Origin: Macrotrachela quadricornifera | Lineage: Eukaryota > Rotifera > Eurotatoria > Philodinida > Philodinidae | Direction: 5' to 3' | DNA length: 64,000 nt | Assembly (NCBI GenBank): GCA_022393335.1 | Contig: JAJEKB010021302.1 | Span: 433,529-497,528 of the forward strand | Part shown: one piece after another, positions 1 through 25,247 of the stretch | Numbering within the stretch: the stretch's first letter is position 1 | How the letters are laid out: each line of letters starts with the position of its first letter | The notes under the pieces: model-generated | Seen by the model: only the letters and a program-made list of their open reading frames with translations | Told to the model about the DNA's origin: nothing | Databases searched by the model: none | Translations under genes and position numbers: made by a program

Positions 1-4
1 AAAC

Positions 5-1861
5 ATGTCAACATTTGGCACTATATTTCAGGTGACAACCTTTGGTGAAAGTCATTGTGCAGGTGTTGGATGCATCGTGCAAGGAGTTCCGTCACGATTG
101 AAATTAGCCGAAAGTGATATACAACAACAGTTAGATCGTCGAAGGCCAGGACAATCAAAATTGACTACGCCACGTAATGAAAAAGATTTAGTGAAAATAT
201 TATCTGGCACAGAGGCAAATTTGACATTAGGAACACCAATTTGTCTCTTTGTTCCAAATCAAGATCACAGACCAGGTGATTATGTTTCCATGCTTGATAT
301 ACCGCGTCCATCACATGCTGATTATACTTACCAGAAGAAATATGGTATTCGTGCGGCAAGTGGCGGAGGACGATCTAGTGCAAGAGAAACAATAGGACGA
401 GTAAAGTTCACATAGGATAGTAACAAGACAATAGATCATTGATTGGATTCATTTATTGTAGGTTGCGGCTGGTGCTATCGCTGAAAAATGGTTAGCAGAA
501 AGTTACGGAACAGAAATTGTTGCCTATGTGAGTGGGATTGGACGAATTCAAATACCAACAGAAACCGAAACATTATTCAAGCAATCAATGCTACATAGGA
601 CACAAATCGATCAAAGTCTAGTACGTTGTCCAGATGAGAAGACAGCAGAATTAATGATTCATGAGATAGAAGCAGCGTTAAATGATCAAGATTCAGTAGG
701 TGGTATCATAACATGTATCTGTCGAAACGTTCCCGTTGGTATTGGTGAGCCCGTATTTGATAAACTAGAAGCCATGTTAGCACATGCTATGCTCTCAATA
801 CCCGCTACTAAAGGTAATTCAACGTGAGAGACTTCTCTCGCAGTGTACTCGATTTTAATCTTCTGTGAGGGATTTTCTTACTTTGATAATGTCTAATGAC
901 TTCTAGTGCAGAAATCGAGTTTTGATCTTTTCGAATCCGTAAATATCGCGCACTACAAATAAGATATATTAAAATACCAATGAAGTTCCATGAAAGTTGT
1001 GTTGTAAATTCTACGATACGGTACAAACTGATAGATCCTCTCCATAGAGGTGTTTTACTAAAGTAGTCTTTTTCCGTATCTGATCTATAACATTCGAACG
1101 GACATTCAAAGGATATGACTAAGATCTGATGTCCCTTTATTTGCTTTTGTTCTGCAATCGGTTTTAAATCTTAACATGTTCTCAGCCTAGTCTTAGAATG
1201 CTCGAATCTGTTTTCGAAACGAACATAACAGAAGAATTTAATCATCTATTCTAAGTTACTTGATTTACGCAAAAAATTGAAGATCAAGTACAAGATAATT
1301 GAGTCAAAACTAGACTAAAATCAACGGTTCAGATTGCACATAGCATATCCTGAGTTTTGTTTTTCTCGTGCAGCCGAATAAATAAAATTGAACACTGATC
1401 AATTGATAATTCAAAGTGCGTTTCTGGAAGTAGAAGCCGTTCAATGAAGTGATTATTTTTGTATTTTAGGATTCGAAATTGGAAGTGGATTCGATGGAAC
1501 AAAGATGAGAGGATCTGAACATAATGATATGTTTATAAGTGATACAACTTCCAACAACAAGAAATTAGCAACTAAAACGAATAATAGTGGTGGTATTCAA
1601 GGTGGCATTAGTAATGGTCAACCAATTGTCTTTCGTGTCGCCTTTAAACCACCGGCTACTATTGGTAAAACACAAGAGACTTGTACCTTTGATGGTGAAC
1701 AATGTTCGTTGAATGCAAAAGGACGACATGATCCATGTGTTGTTCCAAGAGCAGTGCCCATTGTTGAGACAATGGCAGCGTTAGTTATAGCAGATCAAGT
1801 ACTACTTCAACAAGCAAGAAGTAATAGCTGCTGCGCCGTTCAAGAGTTACCTGATAATTAA
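5..1861 (+). CDS. aroC: Chorismate synthase, three exons
   Basis: Last shikimate-pathway step: converts EPSP to chorismate with reduced FMN. Exons 5-400, 462-813 and 1470-1861 join in frame (GT-AG introns of 61 and 656 bp, phases 0 and 1) to give 379 aa, normal for the family. Seen: GESH at residues 14-17 (His17), RRRPGQS at 45-51, RPSHADYTY around His104, the glycine-rich [14 protein letters not shown] ending exon 1, GFEIGSGF across the exon 2/3 junction, [10 protein letters not shown], and [16 protein letters not shown] near the C-terminus. The N-terminus ([17 protein letters not shown]) looks like fungal/eukaryotic Aro2 enzymes. The ATG is only four bases from the window edge, so the promoter is outside. 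First of four aromatic-pathway loci on this strand. The spliceosomal introns argue against bacterial contamination. The longer second intron holds no gene I can see. Confidence 0.95.
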
Positions 1862-3038
1862 TGCGTCTTATCATAAAGTCTTTAAAAATTTTATTTTAGG
1901 AAATGAACTGATCAGAAATTCTATAACACGAAAAAAACCTATATTGACATTAAAAAAAGTACTAATAAATTTCCGAATATTCGTAATAAAATGATTGCTA
2001 GTTATTTAATACGAAATCTTAAAAGGATCCAAAATATTTATTGTATACGATATCGTAGAAAAGACAATTTGCTGAATGAATGTGATATTTCTAGCTTCAA
2101 AGACGCTTCTCTCGCACCAACTTTTAGTGTTTTCAATACTAAAGTTGATAATTTTTAATATTCTGTGTCATTTCCTCATGTAGGTGAAGTTAGCAGCATA
2201 TTCGAGTAAAACCAGGAGTTCGAAAGTACAACTTGATGAACTCTATTCGACGACGTTATTAGAGTTTCTATACATCACACTGTATTTTTAAAAAGTGTTA
2301 AATGACAGGAATTTGAGTTCAGATTTAATCATAGATGAAAAACATCGTCGAATATTTAGGTAGTAATTTGAAAGGATATTTTTTAATTTATTGGAAGCAT
2401 TCATGTTGATAACTTATACTGTGGTTAAGCCTAGCGATCGTATTCATTTAATGCAATGAATCGTTTTTTTTTTATGATCATGCATTCTGATTGAACTGTG
2501 AGGATAGCATTAGATGCATGAATTCAGAATACATTTTATCAATTATTGACAAACTTGAATCTGTTTCGATTATATTTAATGATCAGAATCTTTCTTTCAC
2601 AAGATCACATCTAAACTACAATAGAGATTCCCTAAAGCAACATGAAATATTTCAAAAATATGTTGTTATAAAGAACATTGAATAATGACTTTCTACGAAT
2701 TATTATAGTTTCCTAGATTTTTTTACTCTTTATGTTCGAATTGTGTTTATTTATTATTCGCAAAAGTTCATCAACTACTCTTTTACGAGTATAATTATTA
2801 TATTTGCTGATGTAAAACTCAGTTTTATTAATCATCAACTCAAACGACAACAACTATTTCTTGCAGCTCTTAATCAGGGTCATTAATTTGAAGGTTAAAA
2901 GAATCAGATGATTGCGAAGAAGATCAACCTGATCTTTCTATTGAATTTAAATCGAAAACAAAAGATTCGTGACAATCAATGTTCCAGAGATGGGATCAGT
3001 TGAATTTTTTCCTTAACCGAATCTTGAAAACTTTAAAC
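1862..3038. other. Intergenic, no gene seen
   Basis: AT-rich spacer after chorismate synthase. The only open frame (about 64 codons near 2491) has no recognisable motif. Nothing else supported. Confidence 0.5.
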
Positions 3039-3811
3039 TAACGAGGAAACTTCCCCAGGTGTTCAAGCCCGCTAGATTCTATCTTTTGGCGTTAGATAGA
3101 CCTCAATGAAATGTGAAAATCCTCAAGAGGATTCGTGCGCTAGTGTCTTTATCCCCGACGTATCGAACTTTCAAGGTGTATACAAAAAGGGGATTGAAAT
3201 GAAAATGATCGGTTTTGGAAAACAGTAGAGCATCAGTATTCAGGTGAACAATTTTTAAAGCTTCATGCAAGTTGTTCTGGATTAAGAGTTACATCATATC
3301 GTATCAATACCGCTTCTATTGGCTGTTCATCTGGCCATAAAACAACCAGAACTCTTCATTTCATATTTGTCAACAAGACATGATGCTATGCTAACGAAGA
3401 AAATGAAAAGTAAGATAATCAATAGTGTGCCACCATTTTTTTCCATCAGCCATTTTTTTCTAATGTGTAACGATATCATATATGAAATGGAGAATTCTGA
3501 GCGTTCTGTGGACTGATGAACAACGAGTAGAAGTGATATTGATACTATATGATATAACTTGTAACCCATAACAGGTTGCATGGGCAGTGCGCGCAACTTT
3601 AAAGAATTTCTACCTGAATATTCTACTGTTCTCCAAAACTGATCATTTTTCATTTCAGTCTTTTCTCGTGTAGATCTTGAAAATTCGATAGCTCGGAATA
3701 AAGACGCAAGCGCACGAATCCTCTTGAGGTTTTTCATACCTCATTGAGGTCTACCTAACGCTAAAAGATGGAATCTAGCGGACTTGGACATCTGCGGAAG
3801 TTCCCTCGTAA
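3039..3811. mobile_element. MITE-like element, family TAAC-GAGG, copy 1
   Basis: Long imperfect terminal inverted repeats of at least 100 bp. The left end runs TAACGAGGAAACTTCCCC and the right end, read on the other strand, TTACGAGGGAACTTCCGC; both continue through CCGCTAGATTC, TAGACCTCAATGA and CTCAAGAGGATTCGTGCGC. Related copies lie at 23819-24151 and 40350-40552. The open frames inside lie within the repeats and look spurious. No transposase, so non-autonomous. Target duplication unclear. Confidence 0.75.
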
Positions 3812-3999
3812 GTGGAACTGAATCTAATCTAGGAACAATAAAGTTTATTGATGTAAATAATCAGCTTCATGATTTTCCTTTTTGAGAATAGACGCACGAG
3901 CACTTGTTTACATTCCTCTCATCCTCTTCTTGTTAGCTAAATGAGAAGAGAAATCGCCAATAATTGCCATTATAATAATAAAAAAAGCTCATCACATAA

Positions 4000-5090
4000 T
4001 CAGAAGACGAAAAAAATCATCTGTAGGCATATCAAAAACTAATGAATACTTCGACGCAGTACAATTTAGAAGAAATGATCTCATACATTCGTCAAAATCT
4101 GCAGGCAGCGCTCGGAGTACACCAACATCTTATGGAATTCCCATATCTGCAGCATCTCAAATCTTCACTTGAATCATCAAGATTGCAGTCACCAAAACGT
4201 AATGGTACATAAGTATCACAACAACAACGTATTTTATTGAACGGAAAACCAAAAAAAAAATACAAAGCAAACGAATTCATCAGTCGTTTCAAACTGTTGC
4301 AAGTAAGCTTCCACGCTTTCTAATTGAAGATCACTTCAAACAACAAGGAACTTCGGTAACATTTTCTCATGTTGATCATACAGACAATGAATTAAAATTA
4401 GGAGCGAGCAATAAAGAATAATACGCAACATTGATGTCTACTGAAAAATAGCCAACACAAATTAATAATATTAATATCAACGTAATAAAGCCGAAATTTA
4501 CTTCTGATTCTTTTGCCCTTGTCGTTCGTCACGTGCCACTACAATACAATGATGAATTCATAAAAGATGAAATTGAACGTAATCTTCAATCAGCCGAACA
4601 CGTTAGGCGAATTCAATATCGTTTCAAACGAAGAACAAATGATTTTCGTTTTATTGTGAAAGACGTACGAGAATATAATTCAACCATAAAATTAGGTAAA
4701 AGATCAGTTTAAAACTCTTTTTTGCATAATCACATCCACCCTCACCCTCAACGAGAATTAGAGCACCCTCGCTGTCGTATCTGTCTGAATAATCTCGTTG
4801 ACGGACAGTCACATGATTGTTCGAATAGCGTTCGTTGTGCACAATGCGATGGAGCACATCATTACTTATCTAGTGAATATGAAGGCATTGGCGGGCCGGA
4901 CCATAATTTCAGGGGGGCAATAAGCACTTTTTCGCTGAAAAACGCTTGTTTTCATGACGTTTTTCTTAGAGTCCCAGCCAAAAAATTTTTTTAGGGGGGG
5001 GGGGCAATTGCTCCTCCTCGCACCCTCCCCTGGCCCGCCCATGTATGAAGGAAAATACTCAGTGTATAAACGAAAAATTAAATGATTTTT
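4000..5090 (+). pseudogene. Decayed non-LTR retroelement ORF1 (zinc-knuckle gag-like) fragment
   Basis: Pieces in different frames read as one decayed protein. First comes SKSAGSARSTPTSYG (about 4090), then KLPRFLIEDHFKQQGTS (about 4308-4358). A long block from SFALVVRHVPLQYNDEFIKD (about 4510) to DFRFIVKDVREYN follows, and last a Cys/His-rich stretch with CRIC and CAQC pairs (about 4765-4860) like a gag zinc knuckle. Several stops and frame changes make it dead. A 158-bp MITE (4886-5043) with an 8-bp target duplication splits the C-terminal part. The layout resembles ORF1 proteins of LINE-type elements that I associate with bdelloid rotifers; that link is from memory. No reverse transcriptase follows. 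Confidence 0.6.
4886..5043. mobile_element. hAT-type MITE, 158 bp, with 8-bp target duplication
   Basis: Flanked by perfect 8-bp direct repeats TATGAAGG (4878-4885 and 5044-5051). Ends are inverted: CATTGGCGGGCCGG on the left, CATGGGCGGGCCAGG read inward from the right. It contains a run of 11-12 G. The 8-bp duplication fits hAT insertion. It sits inside the ORF1 relic. Confidence 0.75.
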
Positions 5091-5949
5091 TTTGACTTTT
5101 TTTCATAGTTTCAAGCACCTAGCTCCAATCCAAATAGTGATTTTAATAGCCAATGAAATTTTCTAATGATCTTTTCTAGATAACTAAAGAAGAATCACTC
5201 GCAGAGTATGTTAGAAGATATATAAATTTCATCTAGGTCGCTCTCCTTTTTACAACGATATATTTTATTGGAATGCATTTCATAAGAGTAAAAACAATCA
5301 TTTAAGCCATTTTTTCAAATGAAATGAGTAAGACGTGCGTGAGAGACATTAATGTTTACTCCTTAAATGGCTTGAATTTTTATCGAATTGAAGCATGTCA
5401 TATTACCATTAAATGATACTCTTTCTTTCTGTCTTCTAATACTATTACTACTTTGTCAATATATTATCATTAGTATATTTTTCTTTTCATTTCTTTTTTT
5501 CCTCACATACATATCTAAACGTGGGATTATGTAAATCGAATATACGGCCTTGTGTTTATATCACTCATGATGGTGTTTAACGAACAGCTATGAATGCTTG
5601 CAATACTCATTGTAAACGCAATTCAAGCGTTACAATAAAGAAGCGAATTATAAAAATGTGAATAATAACATTTGCGTTTTGTAAAAAGACATTCAAGTAT
5701 ATACAAATCTTTATAATTTATTTCCATTTAATCAAAAATAATCTCTTTACAATCCTTTGAAAGAAAAAATATAATAATTTTACATTAATTTGATTTAACT
5801 TCATCTGATTAATAAAGTGTTTGTTGATACTTTTTATATGAATGATTGAAAACCATTTTATTGGCCAAGAAATTCTCTTTCTACAGCAGCACTTGATGCT
5901 GGTACACATAAACACGAGCAGCTACTTTAGATAAAATTGGATAGGATTG

Positions 5950-7150
5950 ATACATGTTTTTTCAAAATAATAATGGACTGTATTCTTCTTCATTAGATTC
6001 AGGTGAATTTATTGATTTATCTGATCCATATGTAATATACAACGCAACTTTCTCGTTTTCACCCTCATCGTTAACATTAGAATAAAAGTCACTGATGGAT
6101 TTAATAGGATTATTTGTTGATAATTTATAATCATTATTATTATCAAATATATCGATTTCGTTGTTCGATCGATAAATGTTTCATTTTACGAGTCTTTGGA
6201 TGTAAAAATATTGCTGTCGAATGAATAGTATGGTACTGAATTTTTTCTTTTGTTATTTGTTCAGTTCTTTGATGAAAATATTGAAATCCTGAATCAAAGA
6301 AAATTTAAAATATTAATTTAGAAAATGTCAAAAACAACTAACCTTTATCTGTTTTGAAATCAACAGGTTTTATTTCAAGTGAAAAATTGATGATATATAT
6401 ACTGGAAGTAATAGTATGTATTGTTGATATTTTTGATGTATTTAATTTACTCTCTTCAAAAATTTCATTAAGATCAGTTAAAGATTTGTTGGTACTCTCC
6501 AGACAATTCAGTAAAGAAAAAGCCATCAAACAATAATACATTGTCTATCTCCGAGATCCTGATTCAGATCCATCTATCAAAAAAATAATAGTATTTTTAA
6601 AATTGATTTGTTATTTTCTAAATGATATAATTTAGCAAAAAATGAAAACTGCTATGCAAATTACCTTCTTGACATATTTGACTAGTTCTTTACATTGAAT
6701 AGTTGCTGAGGCGGTGGTAAGTCATACAACAAATAATGACAAATTTTTCTAATGCTTTAAGCAGATTGCTACCACCATCACAAACTTATATGATATCTGA
6801 CATAAATCGAATTAACTCATACAAGCATAATTCTTCTTCTAAAACCTAAACAAATATTTGAGAATCATTTCGAAAAACGCAAAAGTACAATAAATTTTAC
6901 TTTTAGAACATTTGCTGCTCTTTTGTTAGGTTGTCTTTAAGGTAAACAAAATAAATCGAAAGAATTTAGTTTCTTGTGTGCAGTACGACCTAAATATGAT
7001 TTCTTTTTTATATTCATCTGACCACAAATCTGGTGAAAGAGTAAGACGACGTTGTCGAGCAGATTTTATTCCATTTCGACAAGATAAAATTGAAGAAGCG
7101 GATACTGGACGACAAAGAAAAACTAAAAAGTAAAATAAAAAAAATACAGA
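5950..7150 (-). pseudogene. Decayed hAT-family transposase (minus strand)
   Basis: Reading the minus strand from about 7150 downwards: LSPDLWSDEYKKK, then a CDGGSNLLKALEKF block (about 6800) like the second catalytic region of hAT transposases. Next a MYYCLMAFSLLNCLE exon (6541-6345), spliced by a typical short intron to GFQYFHQRTEQ, then IHSTAIFLHPKTRKMKH, and a C-terminal stretch ending EEEYSPLLF (about 5965). Stops and a frame change interrupt it. The first two blocks parallel LVISPDMWTDKYKQY and CDRGSNIVKALEN of the plus-strand hAT relic at 59.5-61.9 kb, so both derive from one family. No terminal repeats were found around this copy. Confidence 0.6.
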
Positions 7151-8534
7151 ATATTGTGCAATATTTAAAAGTTAATCTACATATGTTAATACATTGTTCT
7201 ATAAGATCTTTTAAACCACCATCTTAGTTCTATTTTAGATTGATGTTTATCTGATGGAACTGAACATTTGTAATTGATGAATAAGAATAAGTTTGAAAGC
7301 AAGATTTATAAGACGAAAACTGCTTTATTATTTGTTATATATTCGGGGCTATTGTCTTGGCTGGCAAGTCAACCTATAACCAACAAAGTGCATTAGATTT
7401 TTTTTTCAATAATTGTATATTCACCTTTTTGTATTTCAAAGTAAGTATTATTGATTCTTTTGTATAATGTTCAGTAGATAAATTAATTGATGATGAAGTG
7501 AACAATTTTGTTAGATTGTGCACTAGAAGAACAGTTCCCAACGTTTTATTAGGAAATAGTACTTGCTGATTTAATTGAGTATCATCGACAAAAATTGAAT
7601 ATTAGCAAGGACATATTGAGCAGTAGCAACAGAATTTTAATACCATCAACAAGAAGTTAAATACCACAATAATGAGGAAATGGTATTAAAAAAAAAGAAC
7701 GATTGCATACAGATTATTCATCGGGTCATCACATTGGATTATGACTTGCTTAGCTCTTACAACCAATTAAAAAATGTGTACTATCATTTGGGTAACAGCT
7801 TGAATAAATGTATTTTGTGAGAGATTTATTATTTTTCAGGACGTAGTTTTGTCGATTTGTTAATCTAGTGACCAATGGATATTTTGGCTTTTTTCGACGA
7901 ATGGTATTAACGAAGGAAAATCCAAGACTACCAGTCGATAGAATTCATTAAGTTGTAATTTAGAACTTTTTAAAACGATTGGACCACCTTCCTAGACGAA
8001 TATTTGTTGATTTTACTGGAATATACTGCTAACTTCACCTAAGTCAATAAAATAGAAATTTCAGTCTATGAAATGATATAAAGAAAGTTAAGAAAATACT
8101 TTTGCTTCAGTAGAAAATTTGATTTATAAGATAGATATGTTGGAGTGTCCACATCATATTTTTACATATTATATGTAGAACTAAGAAAGCATTATTTTGA
8201 ATATGAATGATCATTTGTATATTTACAACACATCATTTTTTCAATGAGCTTTTCATCACGAAATCAATGCATAAAAAACTCCGTTAACAATAATGATTTG
8301 TAATGATGCAGAAAATATAATATTTCTTTGTGCATGTTTTAGTATATTAATATATGACAGTACATTTCAAGATGATGAACAGGCGTCTTTTGTATACAAT
8401 ATATAAACTTATAAATATTTTTATTCACTTTTTCAAACGTATTTTAAAATAATGCCCTTTGATTTCGTTACGATCATGATATTCGATTGCCTTTTGGACG
8501 TTGATAATTTTTTTTATCTTAAGAACGAACAAGC
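7151..8534. other. Intergenic, no gene seen
   Basis: AT-rich spacer with no open frame of note and no motif I recognise. Confidence 0.4.
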
Positions 8535-8775
8535 CATGCGGTGTGTTCGTGTACACTATACAAAGTGTTCGTCTGTATCGTAGGAGGTTTTTTGTGCACA
8601 TTATACAGTATATGTTTGTGTGCATGATGCGTGGCTTTCTCATCAAATCATACAGTGTGTATGTGCGCATGGTGTTTGGCTTACGTGTACATCATACTTT
8701 ATGTTCGTGTGCATTTTATGAAGCATTCGTGCGCATCATATACCTTGCTCGTGCACACTATGAGATACCCTCATG
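8535..8775. repeat. Degenerate minisatellite (about 29-30 bp units)
   Basis: Repeated variants of TTCGTGTGCATCATAC and TGTGCGCATG at roughly 30-bp spacing. The open frames on both strands here come from the repetition and are not taken as genes. Confidence 0.55.
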
Positions 8776-10226
8776 CATAGGGTCCCCCGAATAAATACCG
8801 ATACATTTTTTTAAAGGTAATATCATTTCGATACGAAAAGGTAAGAATGTAACAGTATAGAATAATTAACCCTATGAATATCAAGAGGTTTCTTTATTTC
8901 CGTTAATTCAATCCTATTCGTATACTCTTCGCGATACATTGAAAAATCTTGATATCTATTTCTTTCATTTTATGAAGAATCTTAATGATTTTAGTGCTCT
9001 TTTTTGTCTCCTAACTTTCCTCACTTTAGAAAGATCAATAAAAACTATTCTAGTTTGTTATAATAAAAATAAACTATATTATTTGTTAAAGGTGAGTAAT
9101 ATATTCTATGAGTCTATTATATATTTCGAACAGTTATATTCTTCACTCTTCCGAATTCCTTGATGAATTTAGTTGCAGACTTTCGATTTTTGCCAATCTA
9201 TATGACTTTATTTACGTTTTATGATTATTTTAATGCTGTTCTTTAATTCTTCTAATTCAAAATAAAGAAAAATGATGTGTTTACATTTCGAACTACGAAT
9301 ACAGGTCAAGCACGAGTATGAACATTCCAAGAAATGCTATAATAAAGGGCGAAATAAAAAATGTCGTAAAATATAGCAAAAGAGCAATCAATCTAATTCC
9401 AGCGCACTCTCAACCTCATTCCACACTTTCATCTTCACCCTAAACCTGTGTCTTCTACGCACATATGACTGGTATACGCAAAAGCTGCGTTAATAGCACT
9501 TTCTATATTGTTTTTCGATCCTTGTTATATGTGTCACCACGGGTACGGGTGTGAAAAATTGTACCAGTGCAGTACTCTAATATCAAGATCGAGTCTTGCC
9601 TAGTGCAACAGAAACTAGAGAATCATGCGTTGCATTGTTTCATCTCAAACGTAACCTTTGTGCTATCGGGTTTTCTTTCTGGATAAACTAACCCGATGTT
9701 CGTGCTTTATGACGCAATAACTCAGAAAATCGAAGAGGCATTAAACGTTCATCAAAACATTGTGGGAAATCTCGATAACCGTACATGATATACTTTCACT
9801 ATTTCAAAAGAAATCTGTAAGAAAGATATCTTTTATTTTCGAATCGTTTTTTTTTTGTGAGATAATTAAAGTCATTTGAAAGGTAGCGATTCAGAAAGCT
9901 TCATCTATGTGAAATAGAATACTTAAATTGTTGAAACTCTTGACCCGACACGCATAATAAGTACACTTTTTAGAGGAATCTTTAGACACCGTGTGTTTGA
10001 CTATCTATCATTGACCAATAATCTGATATAGGGTCAGCGCTACGAGCATTTGGTCGAGTAGGCCATTTTACTGCAAATTAGATTTTGAGCAAGTCCATTG
10101 AAAGAATAAGTTTTCATATATCCTTATCACAGATTGCGATATGTATATTTTAGATATTGAATACAACGCCGTTGTCACCGTCGATAATATCAATCTCAAA
10201 TTTCTGACACAAAATAACTATTCATC
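8776..10226. other. Intergenic / upstream region of DAHP synthase
   Basis: No gene seen. It holds the presumed 5' region of the DAHP synthase gene, but I find no convincing TATA box or other core element. Confidence 0.4.
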
Positions 10227-11333
10227 ATGACAGACACCCTTAATATTAAAGAAGATACTTGCCCAAAAAACTCAGTGCGCTCGGAACTCTTACCCAGCCC
10301 AGGTGTCTTAATATCTCACCATCCATGCCCACCACATCTTCAAAAATTTATTTCAACGAAGCGTCAAGAAATATCGGATATTATTCATGGTATCGATGAC
10401 CGTTTGTTAGTTGTTATTGGTCCTTGTTCCATTCATAATATTGATGAAGGCTTAGATTATGCGAAAAGATTAAGTGCTATGGCTAAACTTTACGAGTCAA
10501 CATTACTGGTTGTAATGAGAGTGTATTTGGAAAAACCACGCACGATACTTGGTTGGAAAGGTCTTATCTATGATCCACATCTAGATGGAACGAGCAATAT
10601 CGATCATGGCTTAGAAATATCGCGTAAACTGCTACTCACCGTCAACAATTTAGGATTGTCCTGCGCTACTGAATTTTTACAACCAATGATTGTTCAATAC
10701 ATAGCTGATCTGGTTAGTTGGGGTGCAATCGGTGCTCGTACAACAGAATCACAGATACATAGAGAGTTAGTGAGCGGTATAAATGTACCGACTGGTTTTA
10801 AGAATGGAACCACTGGTTGTGTAAAAACAGCAGTGAATGCTTGTGTTTCAAGTCAAATGTCGCATGCTTCATTTTCGATTAATGATACTGGCAGCATTGT
10901 TGGCTATCATACACCAGGCAATAATGATGTACATGTGGTATTACGAGGTGGCACTTTAACAGGTCCTAATTATTCAGCAGAGCATGTCGTTCTTACTCAA
11001 AAATTATTGAATGAAAGCCATGTGAAGAGTAAAATTATGATTGATTGTTCTCATGGAAATTGTATGCAAGATGGTGAACGTCAAAAAGATGTAATCGCTG
11101 ATGTTTGTCAGCAAGTGGCTAAAGGTGATAAATCAATTATGGGTGTCATGATTGAATCAAATCTGGTCGGTGGTCGTCAGCAATTTATCGAAGGAAAGAA
11201 ACATTTATTGGTTCCTGGTAAATCAATAACCGATTCATGTTTAAGCTGGGAGACGAGCGTAATACAATTACAGATCTTATCAGATGCTGTTCTTGAACGA
11301 CGAGCACATAACGACGAATTCAATCATAATTAA
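10227..11333 (+). CDS. aroG: Class I DAHP synthase (3-deoxy-D-arabino-heptulosonate 7-phosphate synthase)
   Basis: First committed shikimate-pathway step: condenses phosphoenolpyruvate and erythrose-4-phosphate. A 368-aa intronless ORF, normal for the AroF/G/H and yeast Aro3/4 type. Seen: GPCSIH with metal-ligand Cys67, MRVYLEKPRT with Lys103/Arg105 of the PEP site, GWKGLIYDPHLDG, GAIGARTTESQIHRE, GFKNGT, VVLRGG, DCSHGN (metal His), GVMIESNL (metal Glu) and GKSITDSC (metal Asp). All four expected metal ligands are present, so the enzyme looks active. The wording around MRVYLEKPRT and GKSITDSCLSWE looks more like bacterial AroG/AroF than yeast, so a bacterial origin is my inference; the exact paralogue name is uncertain. 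It lies between chorismate synthase and AROM on the same strand. Confidence 0.95.
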   Translation: MTDTLNIKEDTCPKNSVRSELLPSPGVLISHHPCPPHLQKFISTKRQEISDIIHGIDDRLLVVIGPCSIHNIDEGLDYAKRLSAMAKLYESTLLVVMRVYLEKPRTILGWKGLIYDPHLDGTSNIDHGLEISRKLLLTVNNLGLSCATEFLQPMIVQYIADLVSWGAIGARTTESQIHRELVSGINVPTGFKNGTTGCVKTAVNACVSSQMSHASFSINDTGSIVGYHTPGNNDVHVVLRGGTLTGPNYSAEHVVLTQKLLNESHVKSKIMIDCSHGNCMQDGERQKDVIADVCQQVAKGDKSIMGVMIESNLVGGRQQFIEGKKHLLVPGKSITDSCLSWETSVIQLQILSDAVLERRAHNDEFNHN

Positions 11334-15846: not shown

Positions 15847-16732
15847 CAGAGACATGCGGTCCGGGTCGGGTGAGATAGTCAAAAAAAACACGGGTCTCAG
15901 GCGGGACGGGGCTAGACTTCACGGGTTCGGGCCGGGTAAAGAATTTCTTCGAAGCAAAATGAAGAACCGTAAAAAGATTATAAATAGATGCTATTTTTCT
16001 ACATGTGTGGTGAAAGTAAAAAACGATTCATTCATTCTTTCCAACTAATTAGTTGTATTCTCACTTGTTATTTGTTCTTCGGTTCCGTCGACAATTGATG
16101 ACATTGTATTAGTTCAATCAGCTACAGCTCACTTAAAGGACCATGTATAGACTCTGTCTTCTATATTTTTTGTAACAAATTGATTCATTAGGACCTCTCC
16201 CCCCCCTAAAAAAAGCCAATTTTGGTTAAAAAATTTAAAAATGGAGACAAATGCAGAAGAAGATAGCCCATTTTCAGATCTTCCAGATATGATATAAATT
16301 TTTTCCAAACAACCCTTCTTTGGTGAAAAATTTTGATGATTTATGTAACTAGACACCCATTTTTGGCGCATTTTTTGAGTCATTGAACTTGTGATTCCGT
16401 TTTCCGCTAAAAAAAGTATGAATTTAAAAAAAGGACTCTATAGTGCCCTGCCTCTTGAGATGCTCTCTCAGACAAAAAAAATTAAATATATTGATCAAGC
16501 TCGAACTGAGAAATCCTTGTACGAAAATGAGCTATTTTTGACCTTTGTTTCGTCAATATCTCTGTCAAATTTCAGCCCATTTGAACGTTCCTGGGCTGAG
16601 ATTGATTTTTGAAGTAGGGGTAAGGGCTTGATTAAAATAAAACAGTGAAAATAGCTTAAATGATAAAATCAAATTTTCTTCGGGTTTACGAGTTTCAGCG
16701 GGCATGAAAAAACACTGCCCCGCACGTCTCTG
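15847..16732. mobile_element. Non-autonomous hAT element nested in the Tc1-like copy
   Basis: Ends CAGAGACATGCGG (left) and CAGAGACGTGCGG (right, inverted). Flanked by near-perfect 8-bp duplications CTTCAAAT (15839-15846) and CTTCAAAC (16733-16740). The left end is rich in CGGGTCGGG words. No transposase. It carries another repeat copy at 16188-16631. Confidence 0.8.
16188..16631. repeat. Dispersed repeat family R3, copy A
   Basis: Ends are weakly inverted (AGGACCTCTCCCC and AAGCCCTTACCCC). Inner words are shared with 48080-48418 and 63097-63819: GAGTCATT.AACTTGTGA, TTTAAAAAAAGG, ATATCTCTGTCAAA and GGGCTGAGATTGATTTT. Probably a non-autonomous transposon; third level of nesting here. Confidence 0.6.
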
Positions 16733-17510
16733 CTTCAAACGTTTAACTCGGTTTGCATTATTTACATATAATCCAACTTCATGCGCACTGTTTGACTTGA
16801 TATTTTTATTCCCAACTCTTGCTTAATCTCATGTTTAACAGATGATGCTGATTTGCGACGATCGACTTAAGTTTTCCGTTTACGACCTTTACCAGCCAAA
16901 TGAGCAACACATCTTGTTTTTTTATATTTCACAATCATTGAATGAATAGTATTTCTTGAACAAAGCATATTGGTTATTATTTCACGTTCAGAATCACCAT
17001 TTAAATAATATTTTCTAACAAGTTCCCAAAATTCGTTCGAATACTCTCTTCGTAAAGGAGATATGAATGTGTAGTTAAATAGACGAACATGTATATATAC
17101 TAACTGAACTAAGGAAAAAGAAACATTTTTTTTCTTTGGTTGATTAATTTTGGTATGATAACAAACTATAGATTTTCAATAAAAATCAACAAAATGAGAT
17201 TTTGATTTGAAATTCTTTATGTAGGTACTATATATTGCGGGCCACAATAAGGTGAAAACCTAACTTTTGTAGCCCCTTTCAATTTCTGAGATATAAAGAA
17301 AGCAAAAATTATTAATCATGTGGTTGATCAATTTTGTTACCCACTGTATATTGTTCTGTTCTTGTGTGTATTTTCTGTGGTGTACTTATATTCTTTTTTG
17401 TTTGGATTTTGGTTTGGTTATGGAATGAGGTTTATAAGATTCTTCGTTTTCTTTTAGATTTCTGTGAACTATTGCCTTAAAAACACTTTTATTTCATACT
17501 TAACTCGAAC

Positions 17511-20500
17511 ATGCAGAAACAGGATGCAAAAAAATTACTATCGATAGATACGTACGATATACGTATTGGCTATGATTTACTTCATTCTCTTCCAGACTTT
17601 GTAACAACACTGGTACCACAATGTGATAAATATGTATTGATCACAGACGAAAATCTATTCCAATTTTATGGGAACAAGATTATCAGCAGTTTTAAAGAGC
17701 ACGCGATCGACCTTCTATACTATACTGTTCCAACAGGTGAACGTAGTAAAAGCCGAAAAGTGAAATCAAATATTGAAGACTTTCTGTTCGCTAATAATTG
17801 TCATATTGATACTGTTTTATTGGCATTTGGAGGTGGTGTGGTTGGTGATTTAACTGGTTTTGTCGCTGCGACGTATATGCGAGGTGTCAATTACATTCAG
17901 ATTCCCACCAGTTTTCTATCGATGATTGATAGTAGTATTGGCGGTAAAACAGGTATCAACGTAGAAAAATATGGAAAAAATCTGCTTGGATCATTTCATC
18001 GTCCTAAAGCTGTTTTCATTGACATTCAATTTCTAGAAACATTATCGAACAGAGATTTCTGTAATGGAATGGCTGAAGCAATAAAGATTGCATTGATTGC
18101 CGACGAACATTTGTTTACATTTATTGAAACGAATATAAGTGAAATTCTTAACAAGAATACAGAGATTATGATGAAACTTATATATGAGTGCATAAAATTG
18201 AAGGCAGACGTCGTTACTCAAGATGAAAAAGAAACTTCTGGTTTACGTTCAATTTTGAATTTTGGACATAGTATTGGACATGGCATCGAAATATTAGCTG
18301 ATGGTAAATTATTGCATGGTGAATGCGTATCGATCGGTATGGTGTTAGAAGCAGAACTAGCTAGAAATAAAGGTTTTCTATTGAACTCAAATGCTGTTAT
18401 TAGTCGTTTAAACAATATTTTGAAAGCTTTTCGCTTGCCAACAACTTTACCATCTGGTATGTCTTTTAAGGAGATAGTTGAAAAAATGTCCATAGATAAG
18501 AAGAATCGACATGGCAAGAAACAAATTGTTATATTGACAAGTATTGGTTCAGTGAAATCGTCGCCACGCTATACAACAGCCATTGATGATCAAGATCTCA
18601 TCAATCTATTGGATACAAATGTTCAATTAATTGTAGATACCATTAGTACTAAGGCAACGACAGTGAATGTACCGGGTAGTAAAAGTATCACAAACAGAAT
18701 CTTATTGTCATGTGCATTAGGTATTGGTGAATGTCGAATTCATGATCTACTTTATTCTATTGATACTCAAACAATGTTAATTTGTCTACGACAATTAGGA
18801 GTACATTATTATTGGGATAAAGATGAAACTCTTGTCGTCAATGGAACAGGTGGAAAATTAAATGTAAAAGATTCTGTAACTTTATATTTAAATAATTCTG
18901 GTACATCTAGTCGATTTTTAACAACTTTATGCACTATTTTACCTGCTGAAACTGAAATTATTCTCACTGGAGATGAACGATTGAAAGAACGTCCAATTGA
19001 AGATTTAGTGGATACACTACTCCAAAATGGGAATCATATTGAATATTTGAATGAACATGGTTGTCTGCCAATAAAAATTCGAAGTAATGGTCAATTCAAA
19101 GGTGGAGAAATGATGATTAATGGTGATGTATCATCGCAATATATTACAAGTCTTTTATTAATATCACCATTTGCTTCAACATCCATTGTATTAAAACTAA
19201 ATCAAGCTAAACCAATTGTTAGTAAGCCATACATTGATATGACAGTTGATTTAATGAAAACTCAATTTGGTGTTCTTATTGATGATAGTGAATCATTCTC
19301 ATATTGTATACCTAATTCAGGATCATATAAAAATCCACCTAATATACAAATCGAAGGTGATGCCTCATCAGCCAGTTATATGCTTGCAATGGCTGCTGTT
19401 CATCCTGGTCTAACAGTAACTGTGACAAATCTTGGTTCCAAAAGTACGCAAGGAGACAGTCAATTTTGCAAAATATTGGAGCTTATGGGATGTCATGTTA
19501 CACAAACTGAAACAACAACAACATTAACTGGTCCAAAACAATTACAAGCTATTCCTCATGAGATTGATATGAATACAATGACTGATACATTTATGACATT
19601 AGCATGTGTTGCTGTCTTCGCTCATGGTCGAACTCAAATAAGAAATATAGCAAATCAACGTTTGAAAGAATGCAATAGAATTAAAGCTACAGTGACTGAA
19701 TTACAAAAATGTGGTATTACTGCTTCAGAAACAGAGACTGGATTGGATATAGAAGGCAATAATAATCAGAATATAGCACAATCTGCAAAGATTCATTGCT
19801 ACGATGATCATCGTATTGCTATGGCATTTTCTATAGCGGCTAGTCGTGGTAGCAATATTTGTATTGCTGATAAACGTTGTGTGGATAAAACATATCCAGA
19901 ATTTTGGCTGCATTTAGAAAAGGTGTTTGGTTTCAAAGTTTTATCACCAACATTAATCGCTCCTAAAATGGTAGCAAGTACTAAAAGTAAGCTCGATCTT
20001 TTGATTTAGCACTTTACTAGTAGATTGAATAGTTCGCTTACTTCTTCTCATCGACATTGTATCTTAGTTACAAAAGTAGGCAAAACCACGTCTGTCCTGT
20101 TCTCACCCTCAGCTGAAATGGCTTCATTTATCATAAAAAACTGCCTCTAGAATCGTTTAAAATAAACTTTCAATATTTATCTGTATGTGTCAGTTAACGA
20201 CTCTTTCTAACTTTTTCCTATCGAAATGAAACCGGATTTATACGGTAGTTTTTTTTTTTAAAAGCTCCGAACTACGTCTGAGATACAGTCAAACGTACCT
20301 GCTCGAAAAAAATTCCACTTCAATAGGATAAAATCCGATGGGAATGTCTGTAGCAAGATGAATGCTTCTGAATAAGTAGAGGTTCATCAAAATATTTCTT
20401 GATTCGTGGTGCATTTTTTAGACCATTCTCATGCTACAATATTTTTAATCGGCATGCCATGTTCGGGTAAATCAACTCTTGGTAGATATACGGCTAATAA

Positions 20501-22544
20501 ATTAAACTATGTATTCATTGATCTCGATGATGAAATCAGTAAAGAAACCGATGGGTGCTCAATCAAAGAATATATTGAAAAAAATGGGTGGCAAAGCTTT
20601 CGTTCATTAGAACGCAAAGTATTCAAACAAATTATTGAGAAAACATCGTCACTTCCTAATCATGTTATCATTTCATGTGGTGGCGGTTGTATCGAGTCTG
20701 TCGAAGTGCGTGAAGAATTATGTCAACAACCATTTGTTATTTATATTAATCGTGATATAAACGATGTCAAAGAAATATACCGGGCAGGTGATCCCAATGT
20801 TCGAACATGTATGGATCTGGATAAAAAATATCAAGAACGTCATCCACTTTATCGTCAATGTTCAAAGTATGAATTTTGTCTATTAAAGGACGATCGTGAT
20901 TGGAGAAAAAATGAAATAAACTTTTTAAATTTTACTAAACGAATTATCAATAAAAAACCACAATTACCTGTTTCTGATGATAGTTTTTTCATATGTTTAA
21001 CGTACAAGAATCTGTTAAATGTTTCCACAGATAAATTTGCAGCTCTAATTCATGGATGCGAAGCAATCGAACTACGTGTTGATTTATTAGAATCTTATGA
21101 TGCTGATTTTATTGGCCAACAAATAGCTTACATAAGAAAATGTACATCTTTACCTATTATCTATACCGTACGTAGTCAAGCAAATTATGGTAAATTCGAT
21201 TCTGATGAAGTAGCAATCTTCAAACTATTAGATTATGGAATTCGTTTTGGATGTGAATTTATTGATATGGAAGCTAATTGGAGTGATAAGATTAAAAAAT
21301 CTTGGCTAAATACAATTGAAAACAAACATTCATTCATTATCGCTAGTTTACATATGGCATTATCTGCATTCGAATTTGATCGAGTTATTCATCAGTGCAC
21401 TGGCAATGGTCGAGTTGATATAGTTAAAATTGCGATAGACATTCATAACGGTACATCAGTATCCGAAGATGTTCTACCTATTTTTATTCAACTGAAAGAA
21501 TTTTTTAAGCAATCAAAAGATCTCAAAATTATTTTAGTCGCAATGAGGGATCAAGGAAAATTGACGCGTATACTAAATCGATTTATGACTCCTGCCACCC
21601 ATGAATTGTTAGATTATCCAGCTGCTAAAGGACAATTAACAGTAAAACAAATTCAAGAGGCTCGATATGCAATGGGTATAATTCAAGAAAAGCAATATTA
21701 TATTTTTGGAACTCCTGTTCAACATTCATTATCTCCATGTATTCATCAAACTGGTTTTGATTACTTTTATTTACCATACAAATATGAAAAATATGAAACA
21801 AATGATGTCTCAATTGTGGAAAATGTTATGAAACAATCAAATTTTGGAGGTGGTAGTGTCACTATTCCATTGAAAGAAGATATTTATGCATTATTAATGT
21901 CTGATCCAAATAATGTAGTGAGTGATTCAGCAAAAAAGATCGGTGCAGTCAATAGTATTAGTAAAATTGAAGATGGTAAATTTTATGGTGATAACACAGA
22001 TTGGAAAGCTATTCATAAATTAATTACTGAACAGATATCTGCTAAATGTTCAGCACTTATCATTGGTGCTGGTGGAACTGCACGTGCTGCTTTATATGCA
22101 TTGAGTCAAGTTGAAGACGTTCAGATTATATATTTGTATAATCCTCGCAATCCTGAAAAAGCAACTAATTTGACACGTACGTACAATAATCAAAATATAT
22201 TATCAGTAACAAAGGACGATGTTAACAAGCTAGAAAATATACGTGTTGTCATTAATACCTTACCATCATCAATTAATTTCACATTGGATAATCTATTTTT
22301 TGAGAAAAACTCTTCATTGAACCATGGTTCTATTTTATTTGATGCCAACTATATGCCGTATCAAACAGCATTAATAAAACAAGCACAACCATATAACTGG
22401 AATATTATTTATGGCATTGATATGTTGATCGAACAAGGTTTAGAACAATTTCAAATTTGGACAGGAAAAGCGATCGCTGTCGCTCCAATTATAAGAGAAA
22501 CCGTACGCAAAACTTATCATAAAATCGCTGATCAAAATGAGTAA
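17511..22544 (+). CDS. AROM: Pentafunctional AROM polypeptide (shikimate-pathway steps 2-6), two exons
   Basis: Exons 17511-19986 and 20422-22544 join in frame to 1532 aa, close to fungal AROM (about 1590). (1) DHQ synthase, ~1-380: GGGVVGD at 107-113, DSSIGGKTGIN, GMAEAIK, FGHSIGH, HGE. (2) EPSP synthase, ~385-822: VPGSKSITNR (Lys391), NNSGTSSRFL, GDERLKERP, GDVSSQY, MTDTFMT, LKECNRIK, CYDDHRIAM. (3) Shikimate kinase, ~827-990: Walker A GMPCSGKST at 836-844, IDLDDEI, SCGGGC. (4) Type I dehydroquinase, ~1005-1250: His1136 in ASLHMA and Schiff-base Lys1161 in DIVKIA. (5) Shikimate dehydrogenase, ~1253-1525: SLSP, VTIPLKE (Lys1310), GDNTDW, GAGGTARAA from 1374. All key residues inspected are present. 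The second exon has no in-frame ATG before the kinase, so splicing is needed. The AROM fusion is known from fungi and several protists, not normal animals; transfer from a eukaryotic donor is inferred. Confidence 0.95.
19987..20421 (+). other. Phase-1 GT-AG intron joining the two AROM halves
   Basis: Donor GTAAGC after ACTAAAA at 19986; acceptor GCATTTTTTAG ending at 20421. The junction codon A+AC gives Asn826, and both flanking frames continue without a shift. If the intron is retained, translation stops at 20007-20009, seven codons after the donor, leaving a DHQ synthase-EPSP synthase protein. It is 435 bp, longer than the 53-61 nt introns elsewhere here. Confidence 0.88.
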
Positions 22545-23818
22545 ATAGCTAATTCTTTTGACCCTTGTTTTTTTTCCTTTTTTAACTAATATAATAGAAG
22601 ATAATTTATCAAATAGAACATTGACTCTGGTATGAGAGAGAGAGGAAAACTAGAACGAAAAAATGACTTCAAAGATTTTTAAAAATATCATCACGATGGA
22701 GATGTCGCTCCATTTCTTCTTCTTCTGCTCGATCGTATGGCTATAGATGAAACAACATTTTCTGAGATTATCTCCAGGGTTGAAAACAATCACATGACGA
22801 GCAGTGGAGAATCGGCTGATATGACCTGCGAAATTTTAGCCCATTTGATTTTATTTCTATAATAATATCCTTCTTCATAACAATAAAATCCGCCCAACAT
22901 ATATGTACGAGAAGGAGGGAAAAACTCACTGCATATACATAAATAACGGTGAAAAAAGAGGCTCAAAAAAAAATTCGAAATCTCAAGCGTTACCGGTCCC
23001 GAAAGGGTTAAAAACCGTCACGATTTCTTGATTTAATTGCTCATGTACATAGATGAATTTCTCACTGCTATTAGTTAGGATGACTGTATTATTGTTCTCG
23101 AAGTTAATGTAAGATACTGTTTGAAGAATTTTCAATTGGGCATAGCACAGAAGTAGGTAAACAAGTTCTGAATACTACTTCTGTAAATCGTAATTTTGTT
23201 CATGCCATTTATAAAATCGAACAATTGATAAGGTTCATATATACTAAAACGTACTAATTTCTAATTGTAAATCAATGTTATAACTGATAATGACTTGTTA
23301 TTGTTTGAACTCTATTTTTCTCCACAGCCAAGTATCCTTTCGTGGAGATATGATATTTTGCTGCACATGTATTCAATGCGGAGCTAATTTTAAGGCTGCC
23401 ATAATAATCGATTATTAGCCTATATGAACTTTAGAATCTATAATATGTACAGTCATACACAACAGTATCAACTAAAGTATTCATAATGTCTATCACAGAC
23501 GCGTATCATCGTTCGCGAAATATCCGAAATAAATGGTATTCTTTTTTCTTTCTCCTTATTTTTCTGAACTTTGTCTAGTTCTTGATGTATATTTCGCATA
23601 CGATATGTATTTCAATTACATTATTCTTGTTCTAATTGCGATTATCTTTTCTTGTTTCTCTTTGATACATTTTGTTTCAAATACGTGTATTCGTTCGAAA
23701 AAATCCAGTTTATACACGAACCATCATTAACATCCTAACCCGATGGCGACAAACTACAGAAAATGGAAGCGAATAGAGTCAAAAAATTGCCTCTACTCTG
23801 CAAAACCTCATTTGGTCC
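22545..23818. other. Intergenic, no gene seen
   Basis: Downstream of AROM. An AATAAA word lies at about 22882. Short open frames lack recognisable motifs. Confidence 0.4.
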
Positions 23819-24151
23819 TAACGGCGAGGAAATCGCCCCAGATGATTAATTCCTTTAGGTCCCATCTCTTGACGGTAGGTAGTCCCTAATGAGATATGAA
23901 AAACTTCAAGAAGATTCGTACCCATAGATCTTTTATTTACAATTATAGGTATTTTACTGAAATATTTGCCTGTAGAAAGGTATCTACCAACAAACCGAAT
24001 GTCGATATTTCGAGCGGAGATTTTGCTCACAAATAGGTCTATTGGTAGGTAGAACGCCTTTGAGATTTTTCATACCTCATTGAGGTCTATCTACCGTCAA
24101 AAGTTGGGATCTAAAGGGCTTAATTACTTGGGGTAGTTCTCTCGTCGGTTA
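23819..24151. mobile_element. MITE-like element, family TAAC-GAGG, copy 2
   Basis: Inverted ends TAACGGCGAGGAAATCGCCC (left) and TAACCGACGAGAGAACTACC (right, inverted). The inner block ACCTCAATGAGGTATGAAAAA is shared with copy 1 at 3039-3811. No transposase. Confidence 0.7.
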
Positions 24152-24578
24152 TTTACAGATCTACATGACTCAAAGAAAATTTAAAATAAAAGATACATAA
24201 TCGTGATCTCGAAAAATTTCTAAATTGTCCTACGCAGTGCAATTCTGGTGCTCTTCATATTGATGTGCTTGAAAGTTACCTTTGATTTGGTTGTAATCTA
24301 GAATATTAAAATTTACTTATCTTATACAATGAACGATGAGTGACTTGTAGACAGATTTGTGATATGAGATATTTTCAGTACAGATTTAAAAAAAAACATA
24401 ATTCCATTTGTAGCGTATTCTACGTTCTATCGGAAAATACGTAGGAAAAGATAATAACGACAGAAAAATAAACTCTCTCTGCTGATGTCGTATGACTTCA
24501 GAACGCAGTGTAGTACGAAGCCGACGCCCTTTTATTCAACCCACCTATTTTCGGGAAGAGGAATCGTAGATAAGCTTT
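24152..24578. other. Intergenic, upstream of the prephenate-dehydratase-like gene
   Basis: No gene seen. No convincing TATA box just upstream of the ATG. Confidence 0.4.
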
Positions 24579-25247
24579 ATGAAATTGATTCAAGATAATA
24601 CGAGAGTAAATCTGAATGAGATATGTTATTCTTTAGATAATCTTGAAACTGTAAAAAGAAAGAAGTCTTCAGAACTCATGATTAAAATCGGCTATCAAGG
24701 TACTGAAAACAGTAATAATCATATTGCTGCTGAAAAATTTGTCGAATCAAATCAAATGGAAAATTATATCCTTATTCCATTAATCAGCTCTGAAAATGTG
24801 GTGAAGCATTTGTTCAATAAAGAGATCGATCTGGGCATTATGGCAGTTTCAAATTCAACCGTTGGAGAAGTTAGAGAAACTAAAAACGCTATTGATAATA
24901 AAAATTTAACAATGATTTCAAAAATCGAATTTCCTATTAAACACACCGCCTTTAAATTAAAGTCAAGTCTTTCTAAGCTGAATGTTAAATATGTGGCCTC
25001 TCATGAAGCGGCTTTAGGGCAATGTAAAAATAATATTAAATTGAATTATCCCAATACCGAAATAATACCGATAAAAAACAGCGGTTTGGGTCCACAAATG
25101 CTTATCGATGGTGAACTCGATTCTTCTTCCATCATCCTTTGTCCATCAAAAGCTGGTGAGAAATATGGTCTGGTGATGGATCACGAAAATTTATCGGATA
25201 TGAATGATAATGTAACGTCCTTTGGGATATTTAAATTGACTGATTAA
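24579..25247 (+). CDS. Prephenate-dehydratase-like protein (no ACT domain)
   Basis: A 222-aa intronless ORF with its own ATG. From about residue 35 it follows the prephenate dehydratase fold: KIGYQGTENSNNHIAAEKF opens like the family's YQG..GA..EAA motif. Then come SSENVVKHLF, EIDLGIMAVSNSTVGEV (the P-I-E-N-S region), SHEAALGQCKNN (the HPQAL.QC motif), and a C-terminal AGEKYGL followed by NVTSFGIF. Prephenate dehydratase converts prephenate to phenylpyruvate for phenylalanine. The family's catalytic Thr-Arg-Phe motif reads Thr-Ser-Phe here, so activity on prephenate is uncertain. No ACT domain, so no obvious phenylalanine feedback. It resembles short bacterial prephenate-dehydratase-domain proteins, hence a bacterial origin is inferred. 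It lies 2 kb after AROM on the same strand, which supports an aromatic-pathway role. The first 34 residues are unassigned. Confidence 0.75.
   Translation: MKLIQDNTRVNLNEICYSLDNLETVKRKKSSELMIKIGYQGTENSNNHIAAEKFVESNQMENYILIPLISSENVVKHLFNKEIDLGIMAVSNSTVGEVRETKNAIDNKNLTMISKIEFPIKHTAFKLKSSLSKLNVKYVASHEAALGQCKNNIKLNYPNTEIIPIKNSGLGPQMLIDGELDSSSIILCPSKAGEKYGLVMDHENLSDMNDNVTSFGIFKLTD

Follow-up and report, generated by a model that had tools for sequence, protein, structure and literature searches.

Clustered, Probably Acquired Genes for Chorismate Synthesis in a Bdelloid Rotifer and a PchB-PchA-Type Fusion Family as the Likely Chorismate User

Introduction

To our knowledge, the textbook position is that animals lack the shikimate pathway and that their aromatic compounds come only from food. 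A 64,000-nucleotide stretch of the genome of the bdelloid rotifer Macrotrachela quadricornifera (hereafter the window; positions 433529-497528 of contig C4631) raises the question of whether this animal could make chorismate and, if so, what the chorismate would be used for. The contig carrying the window is 1,974,356 bases long, in an assembly of 450,031,034 bases and 5,695 contigs, and the window holds genes for chorismate synthase (CS), 3-deoxy-D-arabino-heptulosonate 7-phosphate (DAHP) synthase (DAHPS), a five-domain AROM protein, and a prephenate dehydratase (PDT)-like protein, all on the + strand in a span of 25 kb. We think it fairly probable that the rotifer gained these aromatic pathway genes long ago by horizontal transfer, that the cluster became fixed in its chromosome, and that the chorismate is used by a family of fusion proteins of the PchB-PchA type.

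Results

Genes for the Route to Chorismate

The initial annotation had claimed that all seven activities from DAHPS to CS are encoded at three loci, and each was found in its place on the + strand. The CS gene begins with an ATG at position 5 and has three exons (5..400, 462..813, and 1470..1861, the last including the stop), separated by two predicted GT-AG introns of 61 nt (401..461) and 656 nt (814..1469), and a second copy of the gene on contig C4285 is predicted to splice at the same places as the first of these. The product of 379 aa matched the PDB chains 1r52 with 490 bits and 7rca with 485 bits, both of which we take to be eukaryotic enzymes, whereas the next match scored 310. Three of the five E. 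coli AroC positions chosen fell off target, and the identity of CS therefore rests on the alignment to 1r52, which spans residues 1-371, a full-length match to solved enzymes.

The DAHPS gene (10227..11333) is a single exon with no intron, encoding 368 aa of the class I, AroFGH type. It was found to score 427 bits against TIGR00034 (cut-off 173), 343 bits against the best PDB chain, presumably a bacterial enzyme, and 289-291 bits against 1hfb and 1og0, which we take to be from yeast. AROM is encoded by two exons on the + strand, the first (17511..19986) with the 3-dehydroquinate synthase and 5-enolpyruvylshikimate-3-phosphate (EPSP) synthase domains and the second (20422..22544) with the shikimate kinase, type I 3-dehydroquinase, and shikimate dehydrogenase domains. 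The predicted intron between them (19987..20421; GTAAGC...TTTTTTAG, GT-AG, 435 nt) keeps the frame, and the exons of the C4285 copy align to the same boundaries. Removal of the intron gives a predicted protein of 1532 aa with the five domains in one frame in the order given, which matched PDB 6hqv with 985 bits over residues 30-1508. According to the E-values, these gene matches are not due to chance.

The annotation had also held that the catalytic residues are present, and this was true of nearly all positions compared with the E. coli K-12 proteins, using what we take to be the E. coli residue numbering: 6/6 were kept for AroB, 13/13 for AroA, 9/9 for AroG, 4/4 for AroE, and 4/5 for AroD. 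The AroD exception is E86, replaced by N (the single fungal AROM sequence compared has Q there), and the PDT-like protein, described below, differs at the Arg of its T-R-F motif. The shikimate kinase domain, read from the alignment by eye, retains a GKST P-loop, two paired Asp residues, the GGG motif, and Arg at the aligned places, and the nine metal and substrate positions of DAHPS are kept in all 22 relatives checked. Taken together, the sequence comparisons support the conclusion that the gene set for the route to chorismate is complete in a bdelloid rotifer.

A Fusion Family Containing the Candidate Chorismate-Using Domains

A gene encoding a PchB-PchA-type fusion (hereafter the clustered copy) lies 3 kb upstream of CS and divergent from it, at C4631:428669-430603 on the - strand, which puts it between 4859 and 2925 bases ahead of window base 0. 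Beyond it is a two-exon pyridoxal phosphate (PLP)-dependent decarboxylase gene of the aromatic type (C4631:426122-427826, - strand), so that the two genes occupy the region from 2.9 to 7.4 kb before window base 1. The decarboxylase is 96.5 and 98.8% identical by exon to its C4285 counterpart, and its best PDB match was 4obu (226 bits), followed by DOPA and tyrosine decarboxylases.

A genome-wide search for Chorismate_bind (PF00425), positive in 14/14 controls, found four places: C1224, C4285, C4631:428702-429475 at 4 kb upstream of the window, and C1163. The first three are genes of one fusion family, whose products, counted from their first Met, have 641 or 661 aa, and the fourth, the only Chorismate_bind domain outside a fusion, is on a contig that is a probable contaminant. 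This contig, C1163 (12.4 kb; region 1-10000), has hybrid histidine kinases, intronless genes, and an isochorismate synthase of its own. A CM_2 domain (PF01817) precedes the Chorismate_bind domain in the C4631 and C1224 fusions, both of which were scanned (53 and 62 bits; cut-off 27), and the genome-wide CM_2 search, positive in 13/14 control genomes, found only the C4631, C1224, and C4285 fusions. The front domain alone matched only PchB chains in the PDB (E <=0.001; C1224 84 bits, clustered copy 63), and the top matches of the back domain were isochorismate synthases. Both proteins exceeded the cut-off of 224.75 for the isochorismate synthase family TIGR00543 (C1224 336 bits, clustered copy 246), neither reached the synthase equivalog NF005459 (378 and 279 bits, respectively; cut-off 475), and neither reached TIGR03494, the single-domain salicylate synthases of the Irp9/MbtI kind (clustered copy 64.5 bits, C1224 101.6; cut-off 325).

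The annotation had suggested folate precursors as a product, a proposal that finds no support here as regards a PabB route: no TrpE or PabB was found in the genome-wide Chorismate_bind search, which gave only the three fusions and the contaminant-contig gene, and tryptophan precursors by way of TrpE are likewise unsupported. TIGR01802, for chorismate mutases of the fungal and plant type, gave no match in the genome, but the control was also without a match. Since the only CM_2 domains and nearly all Chorismate_bind domains found lie in the fusions, the most likely fate of chorismate is conversion to isochorismate and salicylate.

We also looked for the fusion elsewhere. A plasmid search had its best matches in Burkholderia and Azospirillum, and in Azospirillum the annotated isochorismate lyase and synthase genes adjoin, with a nonribosomal peptide synthetase (NRPS) gene a few genes before them. 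None of 613 plasmid records had one place covering 80% of the fusion query, a threshold that a diverged fusion could also miss. A first scan of prokaryotic genomes confirmed 0/298 pattern matches. A second gave 75 bacterial or archaeal loci, nine of which hold both parts by BLAST, as separate frames with the lyase first in all nine. Viral contigs scanned with the PDT-like and fusion proteins yielded no relative. Within the plasmids and prokaryotic loci searched, the fusion of PchB and PchA types thus appears to be seen only in the rotifer. An isochorismate synthase tree was built from 55 of the 75 loci (20 near-duplicate or short ones omitted) with two rotifer sequences, EntC, and Azospirillum PchA. 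In this poorly resolved tree, made by a quick method and containing long branches, the sequences nearest to the rotifer fusions were from Bacillota.

Two Fusion Copies with Different Fates

The synthase domains were compared at 14 positions, the choice of which, as well as the EntC numbering, is our assumption, and not all of which are catalytic; EntC itself has the letters expected there. C1224 keeps 13/14 and the clustered copy 6/14, its losses including E197, G214, R347, and E373. Five bacterial sequences have 95 invariant columns in common, and the number of these that are kept is 78 in C1224, 58 in the C4631 copy, and 55 in the C4285 copy. A relative rate comparison found 39-51 changes unique to the clustered copy versus 15-23 unique to C1224 (each of five outgroups, p 0.00006-0.018), and the end branches in the isochorismate synthase tree were 0.47 and 0.094, respectively. 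The clustered protein would hardly be a good isochorismate synthase, as judged from these residues.

Its lyase/mutase domain looks intact. R14, R31, K42, and Q90 (PchB numbering), which we assume to be the positions to check, are kept in the lyase domain of all three fusions, and 8/14 PchB positions examined are identical in each fusion copy. The domain has nonetheless diverged: of the 55 columns in which two bacterial PchB sequences agree, 31 are kept in C1224 and 25 in the clustered copy, and the rate difference between the copies in this domain was not significant (p 0.17 and 0.08). A 2025 paper (PMC12329711) ties lyase activity to a hydrophobic Val at PchB position 55, where mutases have Glu, and gives Asp as the commonest residue at position 51 in a mutase-dominated family; these positions correspond to 54 and 50, respectively, of the PDB chain. 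In both rotifer copies, position 51 (PDB A50) is Asp, as in the mutases, and position 55 (PDB V54) is a hydrophobic Ile.

The PDT-like Gene

A PDT-like gene downstream of AROM had been noted in the initial annotation and is indeed present (24678..25247, + strand), with a PF00800 match of 103 bits (cut-off 25). The open frame runs from 24579. The start is probably at 24678, because the first 33 residues are wholly or mostly missing in 16 aligned relatives and because the C4631 and C4285 copies differ by four gap positions over the frame, none of them from residue 34 onward. The protein keeps 5/6 positions of E. coli PDT. When the window sequence and 20 of its 21 relatives were counted, N160, S208, T278, and F280 were kept in 21/21 and Q215 in 20/21, and the Arg of the T-R-F motif was missing in 21/21, the window sequence having T-S-F. 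No ACT domain was matched in the Pfam scan, and the NCBIfam PDT cut-offs were not reached (best 77 vs. 219). An AlphaFold2 model had a mean predicted local distance difference test score (pLDDT) of 86.6, and its best PDB match was 6vh5, with a template modelling (TM) score of 0.63 by query. On this model, the family is one with the PDT fold. GqqA, described as a quorum-quenching acylase, ranked 7 to 9 among the fold matches, and the PDT-like protein may conceivably be of that kind. A BacA-type prephenate decarboxylase was provisionally put aside as a candidate, judging by the comparison with PDT, in which both the Thr and the Phe of T-R-F are retained along with other PDT residues.

The Proposed Fate of Chorismate

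The pathway that we propose would begin with DAHPS, which would join phosphoenolpyruvate and erythrose-4-phosphate to give DAHP; AROM would carry DAHP through five steps to EPSP, from which CS would make chorismate, and the fusions would then draw chorismate off. The C-terminal domain of the C1224 protein would convert chorismate to isochorismate and its N-terminal domain would convert isochorismate to salicylate and pyruvate, so that C1224 would most simply make salicylate on its own. The clustered copy, with synthase residues lost and the lyase/mutase domain kept, would probably be a lyase or a weak chorismate mutase. As a lyase, it may take isochorismate supplied by the C1224 copy; as a mutase, it would convert chorismate to prephenate and supply the neighboring PDT-like enzyme, in which case chorismate would perhaps go to prephenate and phenylpyruvate as well.

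Several points weigh against a salicylate route. The lyase equivalog NF005475 was not reached by either protein (C1224 114 bits, clustered copy 83; cut-off 126), and a gene with an intact synthase domain turned up at a single place, C1224, a contig of 16.5 kb away from the cluster. Asp at position 51 together with Ile at position 55 is a mixed signature, and so the sequence does not settle lyase versus mutase. None of 11 matches to 2,3-dihydroxybenzoate-AMP ligase was over the cut-off (10 of 234 candidates scored), and consequently no known salicylate user was found. Expression, enzyme activity, the products, and a role in defense are matters that we infer. A siderophore route was considered and set aside, there being no 2,3-dihydroxybenzoate-AMP ligase over the cut-off; salicylate-specific ligases and NRPS were not searched for.

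It is possible, although in our judgment rather doubtful, that the cluster instead makes phenylpyruvate and phenylalanine, with the clustered fusion acting as the mutase, the PDT-like enzyme forming phenylpyruvate, a host aminotransferase finishing the synthesis, and the decarboxylase converting the product to an amine. The degenerate synthase domain of the clustered copy, including the loss of E197 and R347, fits such a role, as do the retained AroQ-fold residues R14, R31, K42, and Q90 and the mutase-type Asp at position 51, whereas position 55 has Ile rather than the mutase Glu. According to PMC12329711, the wild-type PchB enzyme is also a weak chorismate mutase and is able to complement Phe/Tyr auxotrophy. 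The near-invariant residues of the PDT-like family speak for a dehydratase, but the Arg of T-R-F is absent throughout that family, an ACT domain was not seen, and the PDT cut-offs were missed. The similarity of the decarboxylase to 4obu and to DOPA and tyrosine decarboxylases would suit the final step; against this reading, the genome-wide search detected no CM_2 mutase apart from the fusions.

Selection on Two Copies of the Cluster and Their Relatives

Returning to the proposal of a working pathway that feeds the fusions, we compared the cluster with its second copy, which has an identical gene order on C4285 (508,263 bases). C4631:425753-459193 and C4285:332384-300717 share DNA pieces at 91-96% identity over 33 kb, and the similarity ends directly 3' of the PDT-like gene. 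Between C4285:275000-300700 and C4631:459200-497528, no common megablast piece of >=500 bases was found in the stretches compared, and a rearrangement breakpoint may therefore sit just beyond the cluster. The frames of DAHPS, CS, AROM, the PDT-like gene (from M34), and the fusion are free of stops in both copies. The ratio of nonsynonymous to synonymous changes (dN/dS; Nei-Gojobori, C4631 versus C4285 copies, PDT-like gene counted from M34) was 0.04 for DAHPS, 0.09 for CS, 0.15 for AROM, 0.22 for the fusion, and 0.25 for the PDT-like gene, with per-gene p values from 0.0043 to 3e-26. The pooled value was 0.17 (synonymous, 162.5 changes per 1993 sites; nonsynonymous, 104.5 per 7334). When seven domains were taken singly, the values were 0.09-0.23, except for shikimate dehydrogenase at 0.41 (p 0.16, not significant). 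The genes of both copies are under purifying selection.

Decayed copies also exist in the assembly, namely a CS copy on C4341 with 55% identity and stops, and an EPSP synthase copy on C2803, of which one piece has five stops and a second piece has one. Two open frames of 454 aa (C4890:61586-62602 and C898:77843-78799) have a weak EPSP synthase family match (37 bits) and are perhaps another carboxyvinyltransferase relative.

Relatives were searched for with DAHPS, the second half of AROM, and the PDT-like protein. Among the matches listed, the nearest named relatives were Rotaria socialis (64%) and Didymodactylos carnosus (60 and 59%) for DAHPS, Rotaria sp. Silwood1 (46%) and Rotaria sordida (43%) for the AROM second half, and Adineta ricciae (76%) for the PDT-like protein; after the bdelloid-type sequences, the DAHPS matches listed were mostly bacterial or unnamed, at 47-53%. 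Environmental relatives had identities of 57-83% for the AROM second half, 62-85% for DAHPS, and up to 83% for the PDT-like protein. Linkage in relatives, as judged from identical contig sizes and not from maps, would place DAHPS, AROM, and PDT together on 112,609 bases, DAHPS and AROM on 18,031 and 6,048, DAHPS and PDT on 10,261, and AROM and PDT on 9,354 and 15,271 bases.

Three AROM second halves of the Rotaria clade (P0009, P0010, and P0011) present a different picture: the GGG motif of shikimate kinase is lost in 3/3, the P-loop is lost in both sequences reaching it, and P0011 has Tyr at the place of Asp102 in shikimate dehydrogenase. The four dehydroquinase residues are kept. The shikimate pathway in this clade may be broken or reused.

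That the Macrotrachela genes are likewise a decaying remnant, kept by drift and with no working pathway, is improbable. The decayed CS and EPSP synthase copies, the motif losses in the Rotaria clade, the degenerate synthase domain of the clustered fusion, and the higher, though not significant, ratio for the shikimate dehydrogenase domain would all fit a remnant, but they stand against intact frames in both copies, the low per-gene dN/dS values, the close environmental relatives, and the conservation of the nine DAHPS positions across 22 relatives.

Origin of the Cluster

A quick-method DAHPS tree was built from 71 of 120 listed matches, the window sequence, and E. coli AroG, omitting five bdelloid-type matches that were near-duplicates or fragments. 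Nineteen sequences, including those from the window, Rotaria, and Didymodactylos, formed one clade with a support of 100, in which Didymodactylos and Rotaria branch outside the remaining sequences; the stem of the clade is long (0.63), and long branches meet at its base. In a tree of the AROM second half made from the first 50 of 161 matches and the window, 12 sequences formed one bdelloid clade with a support of 100, grouping with an oomycete and a EukProt sequence (support 88, not starred) and away from the named fungi. The bdelloid origin that had been suggested from the letters of the window is borne out by the relatives of DAHPS, AROM, and the PDT-like protein in named bdelloids and by the single clade in both trees.

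Contamination of the assembly, whether fungal or protist, as the initial annotation had named among the findings that would refute it, or bacterial, is very unlikely in view of the one bdelloid clade obtained in each of the DAHPS and AROM trees: the gene types are non-animal and the assembly holds at least one bacterial-looking contig (C1163), but the cluster has introns, lies in a contig of 1.97 Mb, and has a collinear second copy, and three of its genes have relatives in five named bdelloids as well as in environmental sequences.

Neighboring Genes

Tetratricopeptide repeat (TPR) genes flank the cluster, at window positions 42594-44890 (- strand) and at C4631:412174-416691 (- strand), the latter being TPR-like by eye only. 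The first had been annotated as a gene joining an ADP-ribosyltransferase (ART) to TPR; 42597-43217 does match TPR families, whereas the supposed ART piece at 43453-44226 had no Pfam match. A single open frame of 1560 aa at 54042-58724 (+ strand) contains a luciferase-like monooxygenase domain (just below the cut-off), a class-I glutamine amidotransferase domain, and an ApbE domain, and this odd fusion was probably acquired too. Fragments at 46570-47544 and 60227-61895 (both + strand) are transposase-like by eye, resembling mariner/Tc1 and hAT elements, respectively; four pieces of them were scanned and gave no Pfam match.

Discussion

The evidence above suggests a fuller account, which we advance tentatively and with less than even confidence: that this animal is capable of de novo salicylate synthesis, a chromosomal shikimate pathway with genes from both eukaryotic and bacterial donors feeding the fusion family, one copy of which, after duplication, would have remained the salicylate maker while the clustered copy lost its synthase and became a mutase or lyase feeding the PDT-like enzyme. 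If a bdelloid can make chorismate, probably together with isochorismate and salicylate, the textbook position would have an exception that is open to direct test. It would also mean that an animal had rebuilt a multi-step pathway with genes that seem to come from more than one donor, and had kept them linked. Bdelloids would then own a plant-like defense hormone or antimicrobial and be independent of dietary aromatics for these products, and the end product could help them against the fungi that infect them. A defined medium has been published, although the paper in question states that bdelloids have not so far been grown axenically (PMC12650600). With a fusion whose two copies have decayed unequally, the nature of the end product becomes a question for enzyme assays.

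Among the titles and abstract openings listed in the literature searched, which consisted mostly of open-access papers, without bioRxiv preprints or supplements, none dealt with this pathway in rotifers. Acquired genes have been described in Adineta, for valine and isoleucine (PMC3499245) and for defense (PMC11258130), and the latter, from 2024, states that pathogen-induced acquired genes include matches to the phenylpropanoid and shikimate pathways. The gene matches behind that statement may include some of the genes described here, and the statement lends some help to the role in defense that we suggest. Our genes resemble those of the two Adineta papers in being probably acquired biosynthetic genes of bdelloids, and the available text of these papers describes no complete shikimate pathway, cluster, or salicylate gene.

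An earlier report of shikimate genes in an animal genome concerned Nematostella (Starcevic 2008, cited via PMC4237138), and PMC4237138 traces those genes to a Tenacibaculum-like bacterium apparently hosted by the animal. The rotifer cluster differs in that its genes bear introns, lie in a contig of 2 Mb, and have relatives throughout the bdelloids.

Compared with known enzyme systems, the rotifer AROM is like that of fungi and oomycetes in joining five identically ordered domains in a single protein, and the rotifer CS is closest in the PDB to 1r52 and 7rca; the rotifer AROM gene differs in lying in a rotifer chromosome and in grouping with the oomycete and EukProt sequences and not with the named fungi. 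The rotifer DAHPS is like the bacterial AroG-type enzymes, exceeding the TIGR00034 cut-off and keeping all nine residues, and differs from them in forming a single bdelloid clade on a long stem. Finally, the rotifer fusion has the same two domains, lyase first, as the PchB and PchA of the pyochelin/salicylate route of Azospirillum and Burkholderia. Bacteria keep these as separate genes in every locus found to hold both, whereas the rotifer has them fused and, in the clustered copy, with a degenerate synthase domain.

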